Below are positions 45,337-50,035 of a DNA stretch of 64,000 nt, one piece after another (position 1 is the first letter of the stretch; each line of letters begins with the position of its first letter). The notes below the pieces were generated by a model. It did not search any database, had not been told where the DNA came from, and saw nothing but the letters and a program-made list of their open reading frames with translations. The position numbers were made by a program, and so were the translations under genes. Origin of the DNA: an uncultured OM182 clade bacterium (GTDB taxonomy: Bacteria; Pseudomonadota; Gammaproteobacteria; Pseudomonadales; Azotimanducaceae); NCBI GenBank assembly GCA_902567095.1, contig CACFLG010000001.1, positions 1 to 64,000 on the forward strand. Reading direction: 5' to 3'.

Positions 45337-45723
45337 ATGTATAGAACCAGTTTAATGAAAATATTCTTACTCTTATCTTTTGTCTTAGGCTCGTCGACTT
45401 TGCTTGCAGCGGAGACCTATCTAACTGACGGCAAGGGCCCGTCAGGCAGCGACGTAAAAATTTACATTTCTAAAATCCCGCAGCTTAAATACCCCAGAAA
45501 GGCTCTCCGACTCGGTGTAGAAGGGTACGTCAAATTAGGCTTCGACGTTAGTGAGAACGGAGATTTGGTAGATCTTCGCGTCGTGGATGCAAAACCGAGA
45601 GCTTTGTTTGATAAGTCAGCAATGCAATTTATGGGCGGAATGAAATTTTTGTCCCCGAAGGAGGAAGGGAGCTCTGTTAGGGCAAGAGACGCAGAATTCA
45701 CTGTGAAATTTCAACTGAATTAG
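45337..45723 (+). CDS. short exported protein with TonB C-terminal-like domain
   Basis: Signal peptide; PQLKYPRKALRLGVEGYVKLGFDVSENGDLVDLRVVDAKPRALFDKSAMQFMGGMKF. Confidence 0.75.
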   Translation: MYRTSLMKIFLLLSFVLGSSTLLAAETYLTDGKGPSGSDVKIYISKIPQLKYPRKALRLGVEGYVKLGFDVSENGDLVDLRVVDAKPRALFDKSAMQFMGGMKFLSPKEEGSSVRARDAEFTVKFQLN

Positions 45724-45739
45724 CCGAGAGATTTCATAG

Positions 45740-47995
45740 ATGACAATTAAAACCACAATAGTACTCATAATTCTTGCTGGATTCTGCCTTGTTTTCGGGG
45801 CTAACTTTTATTCATCCAACTTGCTCAACGAAGCAAATCAGGAGTATAGCTCAGATAACAGTCTCCAGAGCTACACATCGGCTTGGTTCAGCAACATGGA
45901 TATTCAATTTGAAAATAAATTACTGATTTATGATCCTTTTGAGGGAATGGCCGCGAATGCGGACCTTTGGGATGCAGAGTTGGACAGCTTCAATGGGACC
46001 GATCGTGCTAACCCGCTCTTCGAGGCTCTTCAGGGAAAAGATGCGGAATCCGCCGAGGCGCTTTTCGGCAAGATTTTCTCTGACCCGATTTTTGAAGAAC
46101 AAATTACTTTTGCTGTCGCTTATGACCGAAGAGGTCTTCAGTTGTATTGCGAGTCGAGCCTTTATGTGGTGGGCGTTGATCCATGCTCTCAGTCTGCTCA
46201 ACCAGATTACTTCTTAAACTTTGGGTCATTTGTGAAGTCCTTGGATGATGGGTCGTCTCGGAGCGTTATAAAGATAAAAGACCTGTCTAACGAAAAACCC
46301 GTTTCCATCAACGATACCTTAGCCTTCTCCTTAAAAGATGAAAATGAAAAAGCTATCGCAGTAATAGTTTTGGGTCGAAATGTGATCGATAGTCTCGAGC
46401 AATTTTCCGAAAATTTCGAGATTGAAACAGCGATAGCTTTGGACGACAACGCCTTGACTGTCTACGACTATTACGAAGAAGAAAAGCCAGAAATATTGAA
46501 GAAGTTAGTTCGAGTCGGTTTGGATCACGGGACGGCCAATGAGGTTTATCAGTACAGTTTTATTGATGAGGCTTCTTCATATCAAATTACCTCGATCCCG
46601 TTTAGCAAAAGTATTCGAGCGAGTGACCTCAGGATACTCATATTCGCAGACCAGGCAGAGTTAATTACGTCTCTAAATGATACGGAAAAACAGACGATCA
46701 TATTCTTCTTATTTTTAACTGTCTTGATTACTGTAGTAGTTTTCCTAGTAACCTCTGCGTCTTTCAATAGAATCACAGGAGCTATTCAAGTCTTAGAGAA
46801 GATGGCTGATGGTGATCTTTCAGCAAACACGCAAAAGGCACGATCAATTTTCAGCTCCGATAGAGATGAGGTAGGAAGGCTCCAGAAATCAATAGAGAGT
46901 TATCGCCAGCATCGGATAGAAGCAGAGGAAGACCGAATCAATCGAGCAAAGCGTCGCGACGAACGTGATGAGATCATGTTTGAGAAGATGACATTGTTGT
47001 CAGATCAGCTAGAGGGCCAGTCAAAGGATATGTTGTTGACTGAAATATCGGAAATGAAAGACGCTCTTTCAACCGGCGACGACGAGACAAAGGAAACGGC
47101 GTCAATAGAATTGATGTCCAGGGCTTTCTCTAAAATGTCAGATGAGGTGAATGCTCTCATCGCCGCCCGAACGCATGAGCTTGTTGAAGCGAGGGACGAG
47201 ATCAGCAGCTCGATTCGTTACGCAGCGCGATTGCAAAATGCTCTATTACCCAAATCTTTCCCGGGCGACTTTACGATTAATGTGGAATGGAGGCCAAGAG
47301 ATCTTGTAGGAGGTGACATATATTTTGTTAAAGACTTTCCTGACAAAGTGTATATAGCGGTCGTAGACTGCACAGGACATGGAGTGCCGGGCGCCTTCCT
47401 TTCTATAATCGCTAGAAGCCAATTAGAAAAAGCAATCGATGAAGAGAATTATCAAAGTGCTGGTCAGTACCTTTCTCTGGTCAATGATCTCTTAAGGGAA
47501 ACGTTATCAAAAGCAGATCAGAGCAATGTAGGAGAAGAAGGTTTTGATGGCGGGGTCTGTATATACTTCAGGAAAGAACAACGGCTCGAGTTTGCTGGAG
47601 CTAAGGCATCAATCTTTAACGTCGACTCTGTTAAAGCGGATGAAGTTGCTGGAGACAGGAAATCCGTAGGGTCAACACGAATGGCAAATGACTTTCAGTT
47701 CACGACGCACGTGATAGAAAAAAATGAAGGAGCCTTTGTCATGCTAACCGACGGAATCACGGACGTGATGAGCCCGGAAGAGAGACCTATCGCGTTCGGT
47801 CGAAGGAGAGTTCTGAAGATTCTCCGAGAATCAGTTAATACATCGCCGGGTAATATAGTCAGCAATATAATGACTAGCGTTGATCTGTATAGAGGAGGCG
47901 AGCCGCTCCGAGACGACCTAACCTTGCTCGCATTTTCTATGAACTCAGGGAATGATGTTCCTGAGGCAGGCAACGCAGTAGGAGACAAAATATGA
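45740..47995 (+). CDS. siaA: SiaA-like transmembrane sensor with HAMP and SpoIIE/PP2C phosphatase domain
   Basis: Two TM segments (IVLIILAGFCLVFGANFY; IIFFLFLTVLITVVVFLVTSASF), HAMP, PP2C motifs WRPRDLVGGDIYFV, VAVVDCTGHGVPGAFLSII-type, LTDGITDVM, RDDLTLLAF. Confidence 0.85.
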   Translation: MTIKTTIVLIILAGFCLVFGANFYSSNLLNEANQEYSSDNSLQSYTSAWFSNMDIQFENKLLIYDPFEGMAANADLWDAELDSFNGTDRANPLFEALQGKDAESAEALFGKIFSDPIFEEQITFAVAYDRRGLQLYCESSLYVVGVDPCSQSAQPDYFLNFGSFVKSLDDGSSRSVIKIKDLSNEKPVSINDTLAFSLKDENEKAIAVIVLGRNVIDSLEQFSENFEIETAIALDDNALTVYDYYEEEKPEILKKLVRVGLDHGTANEVYQYSFIDEASSYQITSIPFSKSIRASDLRILIFADQAELITSLNDTEKQTIIFFLFLTVLITVVVFLVTSASFNRITGAIQVLEKMADGDLSANTQKARSIFSSDRDEVGRLQKSIESYRQHRIEAEEDRINRAKRRDERDEIMFEKMTLLSDQLEGQSKDMLLTEISEMKDALSTGDDETKETASIELMSRAFSKMSDEVNALIAARTHELVEARDEISSSIRYAARLQNALLPKSFPGDFTINVEWRPRDLVGGDIYFVKDFPDKVYIAVVDCTGHGVPGAFLSIIARSQLEKAIDEENYQSAGQYLSLVNDLLRETLSKADQSNVGEEGFDGGVCIYFRKEQRLEFAGAKASIFNVDSVKADEVAGDRKSVGSTRMANDFQFTTHVIEKNEGAFVMLTDGITDVMSPEERPIAFGRRRVLKILRESVNTSPGNIVSNIMTSVDLYRGGEPLRDDLTLLAFSMNSGNDVPEAGNAVGDKI

Positions 47996-48372
47996 AATTT
48001 GAAAAAACGCAGAGGACGCCGTTGGTCGAAATAGGCTCTAGCTCCTGTCTCATAAAGGGTGAATGTTATCCGGAGAATATTGCTGAGTGGTCTGGGCCAG
48101 TGCTAGAAGCGCTTAAGAAAACCTTAGCAGACGCAAATACACAATTTAATGTGGATATTGAGCTATATTACTTCAACAGCTCCTCAGCGAAATTTTTGTT
48201 TGATTTTTTTGAGTTCTTGGAGGAGAGCTCGGAAGAAGGAAAAAAAATAAGAATAAATTGGAGGTATCGAGCAGAGGACGACACCATGCTCGAAGCTGGA
48301 GAAGATTTTCAAGAAGACATCACTGCATGTGAGTACAACCTTGTTATCGTAGAGTACGCCAGCGAAGAATAG
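47992..48372 (+). CDS. siaC: SiaC-like regulatory phosphoprotein (DUF1987)
   Basis: LIKGECYPENIAEWSGPVLEALKKTL...VDIELYYFNSSSAKFLFDFFEFLEE...WRYRAEDDTMLEAGEDFQED; overlaps the end of siaA. Confidence 0.8.
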   Translation: MKFEKTQRTPLVEIGSSSCLIKGECYPENIAEWSGPVLEALKKTLADANTQFNVDIELYYFNSSSAKFLFDFFEFLEESSEEGKKIRINWRYRAEDDTMLEAGEDFQEDITACEYNLVIVEYASEE

Positions 48373-48434
48373 GACCAAGAATAGTTTTCAAATTTTAGAA
48401 CAAAGCTAGAATGTAATTTCTAACTGGGGCAGGG

Positions 48435-48971
48435 ATGGAAAAAAATAAAGACACTTTGGGTTTGCACACTTTTATGCAAGACAGAAAGACACTGTTTTGT
48501 TATTCGGGGCCTCTAACCGAAGATTTACTCACCACTATCTCTAACCCCGTCAGACATCAGCTATCAGACAAAGAAACTGAGGAGACTGTATCAAAACGGG
48601 TCTTTGGAGTATTTATTGAGCAGGCCCAAAACATTATTAGGTACTCTACTCAGAAAACAAAGTCCACTGGAGATAGTATTGGAACAATCGCAATCAGCGT
48701 GGCTGAAGATGGCTTCTTAATTGAAGCCGTCAATAAGATTGACGAAAACAAAAGGGACGTTCTTGAGGCAACTCTTGTCGAATTAAGCGTAGCCGATCAA
48801 AAAGCGCTAAGGCAAATGTACAAACAAAGATTGCGTGATGGCCCCCCCGAGGATTCAGAAGGAGCTGGGCTCGGTTTTATAGAGATGGCGAGACGCGTAA
48901 AACACTTCGAATTTAATTTTGTTGAATCTGAGGAAGGTGCTCTTTTCGTTTATCGTGGATGGGTAAGTTAA
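48435..48971 (+). CDS. siaB: SiaB-like protein kinase (DUF6272)
   Basis: FCYSGPLTEDLLTTISNPVRHQL...RVFGVFIEQAQNIIRYSTQ...GAGLGFIEMARR; next to SiaA/SiaC-like genes. Confidence 0.78.
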   Translation: MEKNKDTLGLHTFMQDRKTLFCYSGPLTEDLLTTISNPVRHQLSDKETEETVSKRVFGVFIEQAQNIIRYSTQKTKSTGDSIGTIAISVAEDGFLIEAVNKIDENKRDVLEATLVELSVADQKALRQMYKQRLRDGPPEDSEGAGLGFIEMARRVKHFEFNFVESEEGALFVYRGWVS

Positions 48972-50035
48972 GTCTTACCTTTTTCCTTCTCTGCGAAGCC
49001 AGAATCATAAAAGAAGTCTAACGATTTCTGTCTTTTAAAATTGTCTATAGCGGTTATTGTGTCTTCGAGATTTAGCTTAGCAGTATCTAATTCTTGCTCA
49101 GATAATTTATTTAGAATTACCGACATTGTTCGCTCACCTAACTCGAGAGTGACTGAGGAAGAGTCCACTGATTTTAAAACCTTAAAGGGCTTGAAATTTC
49201 CCAATCCTTTTAAGTAAATTGGATCCAGTTCGACCGCCTCGATAGATCCCTTTACTAAGTTGTAGGTGTCTTCAGAGATGTAGATCGATCCATTTTCCGC
49301 TGCCTCTTCAAGTCTGGAGGCTTTGTTTACCGCTGAGCCTATAGCCGTATAATCTAGCCTAGATTCACAGCCAAAGTTTCCAACAGTAGCAAAGCCTGTG
49401 TCTATTCCTATTCTCATCTGGAGCTGTTCTTTGAGTCCATAACGGACCCATTGGTCTCCAAGATTGTCTAATTCTTTAAGCATCTCTAAGGCCATATTAA
49501 CGCATTTGAGAGCGTCCTCTCTGACACCTTCAGTTTCGGGGTCTCCAAAGAAAAGCATGATTCCGTCGCCAATGTATTTATCAATTGTCGCGCCATAATC
49601 CAAAGCGATTTTTGTCATGGACTCTAGATACAAATTAAGCAGGTCTGTCACATCTTCAGATTCCATGCTTTCGACGAAATTAGTGAATCCGCAAAGGTCT
49701 GAAAAAAAGACGGTCAGTTTTTTTCTCCGACTCACACGGCTGCCGTGTCTCGAACCCGAGAATATTGATTGGTACAACTGAGGAGATAAAAATTTAGACA
49801 ACTGAGAGGACATGCCCTCAAGTTGCTCGTTTGTCTCCTGAGCCTCTTGTTTTAACTCGTTGAGGCGGTGCTCGTTTTTGTCACTTAGTTTTATTATTCG
49901 CTTTGTGGTTCGAAGGAGTTTGCTATAGTTCCCAACGAGTTTATTGTAGTCTGACTGACCAGCCTTCCCACTTTCATTTGTCTTTTTAGCGTTGGCGAGA
50001 ACTTCTGTCTCTTGGCTAAATATATTGGTATCCAT
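48968..50035 (-). CDS. class III adenylate/guanylate cyclase with N-terminal coiled-coil
   Basis: VFFSDLCGFTNFVESM (metal Asp), TIDKYIGDGIMLFFGDP (Lys, metal Asp), LDYTAIGSAVNKASRLEEAA (Thr, Asn, Arg). N-terminal helix YNKLVGNYSKLLRTTKRIIKLSDKNEHRLNELKQEAQE. Confidence 0.9.
   Translation of the reverse strand: MDTNIFSQETEVLANAKKTNESGKAGQSDYNKLVGNYSKLLRTTKRIIKLSDKNEHRLNELKQEAQETNEQLEGMSSQLSKFLSPQLYQSIFSGSRHGSRVSRRKKLTVFFSDLCGFTNFVESMESEDVTDLLNLYLESMTKIALDYGATIDKYIGDGIMLFFGDPETEGVREDALKCVNMALEMLKELDNLGDQWVRYGLKEQLQMRIGIDTGFATVGNFGCESRLDYTAIGSAVNKASRLEEAAENGSIYISEDTYNLVKGSIEAVELDPIYLKGLGNFKPFKVLKSVDSSSVTLELGERTMSVILNKLSEQELDTAKLNLEDTITAIDNFKRQKSLDFFYDSGFAEKEKGKT

Follow-up and report, generated by a model that had tools for sequence, protein, structure and literature searches.

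A Sia-type partner-switching module predicted to control a class III nucleotide cyclase in a marine gammaproteobacterium

The 64,000-nucleotide stretch analysed here (the window; contig CACFLG010000001.1 from an uncultured OM182 clade bacterium) encodes homologues of SiaA, SiaC and SiaB in a row, followed by a convergent gene for a class III nucleotide cyclase (Table 1). The related SiaABCD system of Pseudomonas aeruginosa has been described (PMC8457831, PMC7647112, PMC7278518), and in the searched open-access literature SiaC is described only with the GGDEF enzyme SiaD (e.g. PMC8457831). At the locus studied here the neighbour is the class III cyclase and not a GGDEF enzyme. Sequence comparison makes it likely that this is a Sia-type partner switch with a cyclic AMP (cAMP) output, in which SiaC, set by SiaA and SiaB, docks on an N-terminal stalk of the cyclase and raises cAMP synthesis. 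The proposal is carried by the gene content of the locus, its conserved linkage, the co-occurrence of SiaC with the stalk, a match to the SiaC-binding motif and the lack of any GGDEF domain detected in the 72%-complete genome.

The cyclase gene adjoined siaC-siaB in nearly all relatives whose contigs extend that far, and the adjacency that the initial annotation had proposed to check is therefore conserved. Most gammaproteobacteria share the order TonB_C gene-siaA-siaC-siaB with a convergent cyclase. At L029, L030 and L037 the order is siaC-siaB-cyclase and then siaA, and SAR324-type genomes (L033, L158-L161) carry a co-directional siaC-siaB-cyclase-siaA arrangement. Because linkage is kept across differing gene orders and strands, the association of siaC, siaB and the cyclase has survived rearrangement.

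Within the window's family, 17 of 207 genomes encode SiaC and the stalk was present in 16 of them (Fisher p 6e-23); in the remaining one (G065) a contig end cuts siaB. No strong stalk match was detected in any of the 190 SiaC-negative family genomes, one of which (G626) gave a partial match (E-value 0.007). A 72-residue profile of cyclase N termini was also run over 399 evenly drawn Pseudomonadota genomes. It found the stalk in 52 genomes, 51 of them among the 67 that encode SiaC (Fisher p 5e-49); the genomes in these surveys are interrelated, so that both p-values overstate independence, which counts against the proposal. The single stalk-positive genome without SiaC gave a weak match (E 4e-4). 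In the window genome itself, one of three class III cyclases bears the stalk, and it is the neighbour of siaB.

These data bear on the view that the cyclase serves a different pathway, its convergent arrangement having been inherited without a functional tie. The opposite strand of the gammaproteobacterial cyclase and a synteny shared by descent among close relatives would fit such a view. However, the linkage persists across reorderings, including same-strand arrangements in SAR324/delta genomes, and the same stalk is found on unrelated output domains adjoining SiaC. Moreover, stalk-bearing cyclases were looked for in SiaC-negative genomes and did not prove common there. A positional origin of the neighbourhood is thus barely conceivable, and chance adjacency was rejected on the linkage in shuffled gene orders together with the presence/absence tests. 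Gene linkage, stalk co-occurrence and the motif tests described below support the siaA-siaC-siaB-cyclase cluster as more than a chance neighbourhood.

The initial annotation had proposed that a cyclase helix (YNKLVGNYSKLLRTTKRIIKLSDKNEHRLNELKQ) could serve as the docking stalk for SiaC; alignment to the crystallographic SiaC-binding motif argues for this assignment. In the SiaC-SiaD crystal structure the contacts on SiaD are R74, K77, V78, R80, I81, S82, D83, R84, Y85, Q86, M88, R90 and D91, with T68 of SiaC inserted against S82 and Q86 (PMC8457831). A gapless alignment placed SiaD R-L-E-K-V-A-R-I-S-D-R-Y-Q (7e6g) over cyclase T-T-K-R-I-I-K-L-S-D-K-N-E. Here K77, V78, R80, I81, S82, D83, R84 and Q86 of SiaD correspond to R, I, K, L, S, D, K and E, with S51-D52 of the cyclase aligned to S82-D83. 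The charged, hydrophobic and S-D positions of the SiaD motif are mostly kept or conservatively replaced. In SAR324/delta-type relatives the stalk contains exactly 7 extra residues, that is one heptad, which is consistent with a parallel coiled coil. A stalk with a SiaC-contact motif on the output enzyme was found through the 7e6g contact alignment, through motif hidden Markov models (HMMs) and through co-occurrence.

A partner-motif HMM, free of class III cyclases and of strict SiaDs, was trained on the motifs of SiaC neighbours in other lineages. The window cyclase was its best and sole significant match among the 301 open reading frames (ORFs) of the window (E 6e-9). Since the training segments had been chosen by a regular expression around S-D-x-x-Q/E, this test is independent for cyclases and not for that core. 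A reciprocal HMM of 36 residues, built from cyclases only, was run on 2789 six-frame ORFs. These came from 43 siaC loci, the majority of them in other lineages. The HMM gave 21 matches at E < 0.001, all in ORFs overlapping, abutting or at most ~1 kb from siaC; matches up to E ~3 lay solely near siaC, and the first distant ones appeared at E 6. In the multi-locus ORF set the bridge between the SiaC-neighbour motifs and those of strict SiaDs was moderate (L040 SiaD, E 3e-5).

Coiled coils yield spurious similarity, and an HMM from strict SiaD stalks alone gave the cyclase no significant match among the window ORFs (E 5), as might be expected if the stalk were a generic coiled coil and SiaC acted on another, unseen target. 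If the stalk were generic, however, the cyclase stalk profile would match coiled coils everywhere, whereas the genomes matched in the phylum sample carry SiaC with one exception and the cyclase was the only significant ORF in the window. We regard a generic coiled coil as improbable.

The positions of the phylum-sample matches raise a different alternative. While 50 of the 75 stalk matches lay within 2.5 kb of siaC, the other 25 did not (e.g. G209:C5:58887, G235:C48:90292, G198:C50:101109) and all but one of these occurred in SiaC-encoding genomes, so SiaC may act on targets in trans. Some genomes also hold several SiaC and several stalk proteins. It is possible, if doubtful, that in some genomes SiaC serves as a shared hub for several stalk-bearing enzymes, the neighbouring cyclase being one of them. 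In the window genome (72% complete), however, only one stalk-bearing protein was found, and no target other than the cyclase is visible there.

Pfam and HMM scans identified the stalk-matched siaC neighbours as GGDEF proteins, class III cyclases, GAF-HD-GYP proteins and (hybrid) histidine kinases. The initial annotation had overlooked this wider pattern, in which the same stalk is present on HD-GYP and histidine-kinase outputs adjoining SiaC. GAF-HD-GYP proteins with an N-terminal docking motif adjoin siaC at L085:3378-5453, L089:5880-7955, L092:640-2775, L094:5948-7987 and L109:5916-8003. The HD-GYP domain class usually degrades cyclic di-GMP (c-di-GMP), and the docking motif suggests that these proteins are under SiaC control. 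Histidine kinases with an N-terminal docking motif, one of them hybrid, lie near siaC at L079:2250-4514 and L087:4489-5565; here the motif suggests partner-switch control of two-component kinases. In some genomes of the SAR324-centred group (L166, L167, L170, L171), extra SiaB-like genes alternate with genes for stalk proteins of ~300-330 residues downstream of siaC. When output partners were mapped on a SiaC tree, those of the class III cyclase type required at least 5 changes, 3 of them forced by well-supported branches. Partners were thus probably swapped repeatedly; the tree rests on only 124 columns, and several of its placements are unsure.

The cyclase is a soluble protein of predicted adenylyl type (Guanylate_cyc, Pfam E 6e-27). 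Its closest relative by sequence is P. aeruginosa CyaB (3r5g, E 5e-58), and Foldseek matched its AlphaFold2 (AF2) model to the CyaB structure with E 3e-21, a TM-score (target) of 0.90 and ~50% identity. The two metal aspartates (D113/D157), the purine-specifying pair (K153/D228) and the transition-state residues (N237/R241) all align with those of CyaB. Among 26 aligned cyclase sequences D113, K153, D157, N237 and R241 are invariant, and position 228 is Asp or Glu. Because Lys153 and Asp228 occupy the purine-specifying places, the predicted substrate is ATP. The cyclases of six relatives (L032, L034, L035, L041, L042, L025) contain Glu at position 228 (RLEYT) with the Lys kept; their substrate is less certain for this reason, and substrate preference may differ within the cyclase family. 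The input domain of CyaB is a MASE2 domain integral to the membrane, whereas the window cyclase has a soluble stalk and a predicted input from SiaC.

The proposal that a class III cyclase replaces SiaD as the output had been made in the initial annotation, and both the conserved adjacency and the GGDEF content of these genomes agree with it. A PF00990 search of the window genome, which is 72% complete, detected no GGDEF domain, and a hidden GGDEF partner elsewhere was rejected on this result. None was detected in three same-genus SiaC genomes, including one that is 93% complete, or in 15 of the 27 SiaC-cyclase genomes, two of which are 93% and 97% complete. In three genomes that carry a true siaD, by contrast, 30-48 GGDEF domains were counted. 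The window genome encodes five cyclic nucleotide-binding (cNMP-binding) domains, which are candidate cAMP readers.

Key residues of SiaC, SiaB and SiaA are retained at the locus. SiaC (PF09345, E 8e-32; P. aeruginosa SiaC of 6kko/7e6g, phmmer E 2e-16) carries N62-S63-S64 at the start of helix 2. This aligns with N67-T68-S69 of P. aeruginosa SiaC, with Ser in place of Thr, so the predicted phospho-acceptor is Ser63. The sequence YFNSSSAKF is invariant across the cyclase-linked SiaC set, and E110 and D114 of P. aeruginosa SiaC are both Asp in the window protein (SiaC numbering in PMC8457831 is shifted by one relative to the PDB chain). The SiaB-like protein (PF19788, DUF6272, E 6e-32; 6kko SiaB, phmmer E 1e-17) is of the GHKL kinase type, and its E62 aligns with Glu61, the catalytic residue of P. 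aeruginosa SiaB. The SiaA-like protein is a membrane PP2C phosphatase (SpoIIE/PP2C, Pfam E 1e-15) in which the acidic metal motifs GGD, VDCTGHG, TDG and RDD were recognised by eye; its HAMP domain is weak (E 0.016, below the cut-off). The gene identities first assigned were thus recovered as Pfam SpoIIE, SiaC, DUF6272 and Guanylate_cyc, with HAMP alone falling short. The four ORFs placed at 45740-50035 were confirmed in coordinates, strands and the 4-bp overlap of the stops.

In the proposed mechanism the SiaA phosphatase would sense a periplasmic signal via its double-Cache-like domain and dephosphorylate SiaC, which SiaB would phosphorylate at Ser63 (the equivalent of T68). Unphosphorylated SiaC would dock at R-I-x-K-L-S-D-K-x-E in the N-terminal stalk helix of the cyclase, as SiaC clamps the SiaD stalk dimer. 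Docking would stabilise the catalytic dimer as well as the parallel stalk and so increase the conversion of ATP to cAMP, and phosphorylation of SiaC would release it from the stalk. We infer from sequence the binding, the phosphorylation chemistry, the use of ATP and activation over inhibition. Class III cyclases and diguanylate cyclases need different dimer geometry, and stalk registers can turn either off. As sequence leaves the sign unfixed, unphosphorylated SiaC could instead inhibit the cyclase by keeping its stalk non-productive, and phosphorylation would then free it. This opposite sign seems unlikely, because known SiaC activates through stalk-dimer stabilisation (PMC8457831), and class III cyclases, too, function as dimers whose active sites are shared, the stalk being the same kind of element. 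Inhibition and the shared hub are the main live alternatives; both are refinements of the same SiaC-cyclase pairing, and neither is exclusive of the cAMP switch proposed here.

Several further observations weigh against activation of the cyclase by docked SiaC. The gammaproteobacterial cyclase gene is on the opposite strand and hence outside the siaABC transcript. Some SiaD contacts are altered in the cyclase (R74 to T, M88 to R), contact residues differ in SiaC (I71 to A, R103 to T), and the cyclase contains one SiaC-contact motif where SiaD contains two. Beyond the miss by the strict SiaD model, the link from the cyclase to SiaD passes through intermediate families together with the contact-by-contact alignment. 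Finally, AF2 modelled the cyclase as a monomer only, and its confidence is low where the stalk joins the catalytic domain.

On the input side, the AF2 model of SiaA residues 1-345 (predicted local distance difference test score, pLDDT, 86.6) matched mostly dCache/LuxQ-type sensor domains in the PDB, at moderate TM-score only, and the predicted sensor domain is accordingly assigned at class level only. The TonB_C gene belongs to the unit: it lies directly 5' of siaA in most relatives (gap 16-64 bp) and accompanies siaA even where siaA is separated from siaC-siaB (L029:10516-10866, L030:12142-12408). We suspect that the small TonB_C protein takes part in sensing, as a candidate periplasmic partner of the SiaA sensor. 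The source assembly is 1.76 Mb. Uncultured marine gammaproteobacteria are its nearest relatives with names, and many of these carry the label Halieaceae/Luminiphilus.

Table 1. Positions of the genes, domains and predicted motifs of the Sia-cyclase locus in the window
Feature	Position	Strand	Remarks
TonB_C-domain gene, 128 aa, product exported-looking	45337-45723	+	16 bp upstream of siaA; Pfam TonB_C E 2e-14
siaA-like gene	45740-47995	+	ORF as placed by the initial annotation
SiaA-like architecture: transmembrane segment, periplasmic double-Cache-like domain, transmembrane segment, weak HAMP, PP2C/SpoIIE	45740-47995	+	
siaC (PF09345)	47992-48372	+	4-bp overlap with siaA
siaB-like kinase gene (DUF6272)	48435-48971	+	
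Class III cyclase gene, 355 aa	48968-50035	-	Convergent with siaB; stops share 4 bp
Catalytic cyclase homology domain, residues 102-292	49160-49732	-	CyaB alignment, Foldseek
Stalk, one continuous predicted helix, cyclase residues 28-82	49790-49954	-	AF2 model
SiaC-docking motif (predicted), cyclase residues 31-66, ..Y.KLLRTTKRIIKLSDKNEHRL..	49838-49945	-	Alignment to SiaD contacts

The window system resembles P. aeruginosa SiaABCD in its PP2C sensor SiaA, its DUF6272 kinase SiaB, a SiaC with an N-S/T-S phospho-site and an output enzyme whose helical N-terminal stalk bears the SiaC contact motif. It differs in having a class III cyclase in place of a GGDEF output, with a single stalk motif, in the predicted Ser rather than Thr phospho-site, in the order siaA-siaC-siaB with a convergent cyclase and a TonB_C gene upstream, and in the lack of any GGDEF domain detected in its incomplete genome. 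The catalytic domain is in turn like that of CyaB, with adenylyl-type residues. HptB-HsbA-HsbD and BgrSTUWV, as cited in PMC8457831, are similar in that a nucleotide-messenger enzyme is regulated by a STAS-like protein, itself controlled by a kinase and a phosphatase; they differ in having true STAS proteins and GGDEF outputs, with no cyclase homology domain output. For Campylobacterota, gene clusters predict PP2C/stas-kinase/STAS control of c-di-GMP enzymes or chemoreceptors (PMC9239204). Like the window system, these clusters represent a predicted merging of partner switching with other signalling enzymes, but the sections of that source considered here describe neither a class III cyclase under STAS/SiaC control nor a docking motif (PMC9239204). 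A search of the open-access literature, with subscription papers and preprints outside its scope, found no report of a SiaC-controlled class III cyclase, nor of HD-GYP or kinase outputs that bear the docking motif.

On a broader reading, SiaC is likely a general phospho-regulated clamp and the docking stalk a portable plug present on at least 4 outputs (diguanylate cyclases, class III nucleotide cyclases, HD-GYP proteins and histidine kinases), with the Sia switch rewired from c-di-GMP to cAMP in a marine lineage that has no or few GGDEF domains. If correct, a class III cyclase would here be placed under SiaC partner switching for the first time, as far as the searched literature shows, and the stalk would offer a compact phospho-controlled handle for the engineering of soluble enzymes. 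Modulation of adjacent proteins has been suggested as the common function of DUF1987 proteins (PMC8457831), a remark that would become directly testable. SiaC would gain a recognisable docking code, from which its partner could be predicted in genomes where the partner is no diguanylate cyclase, and second-messenger rewiring would have occurred through an enzyme swap behind one docking helix.

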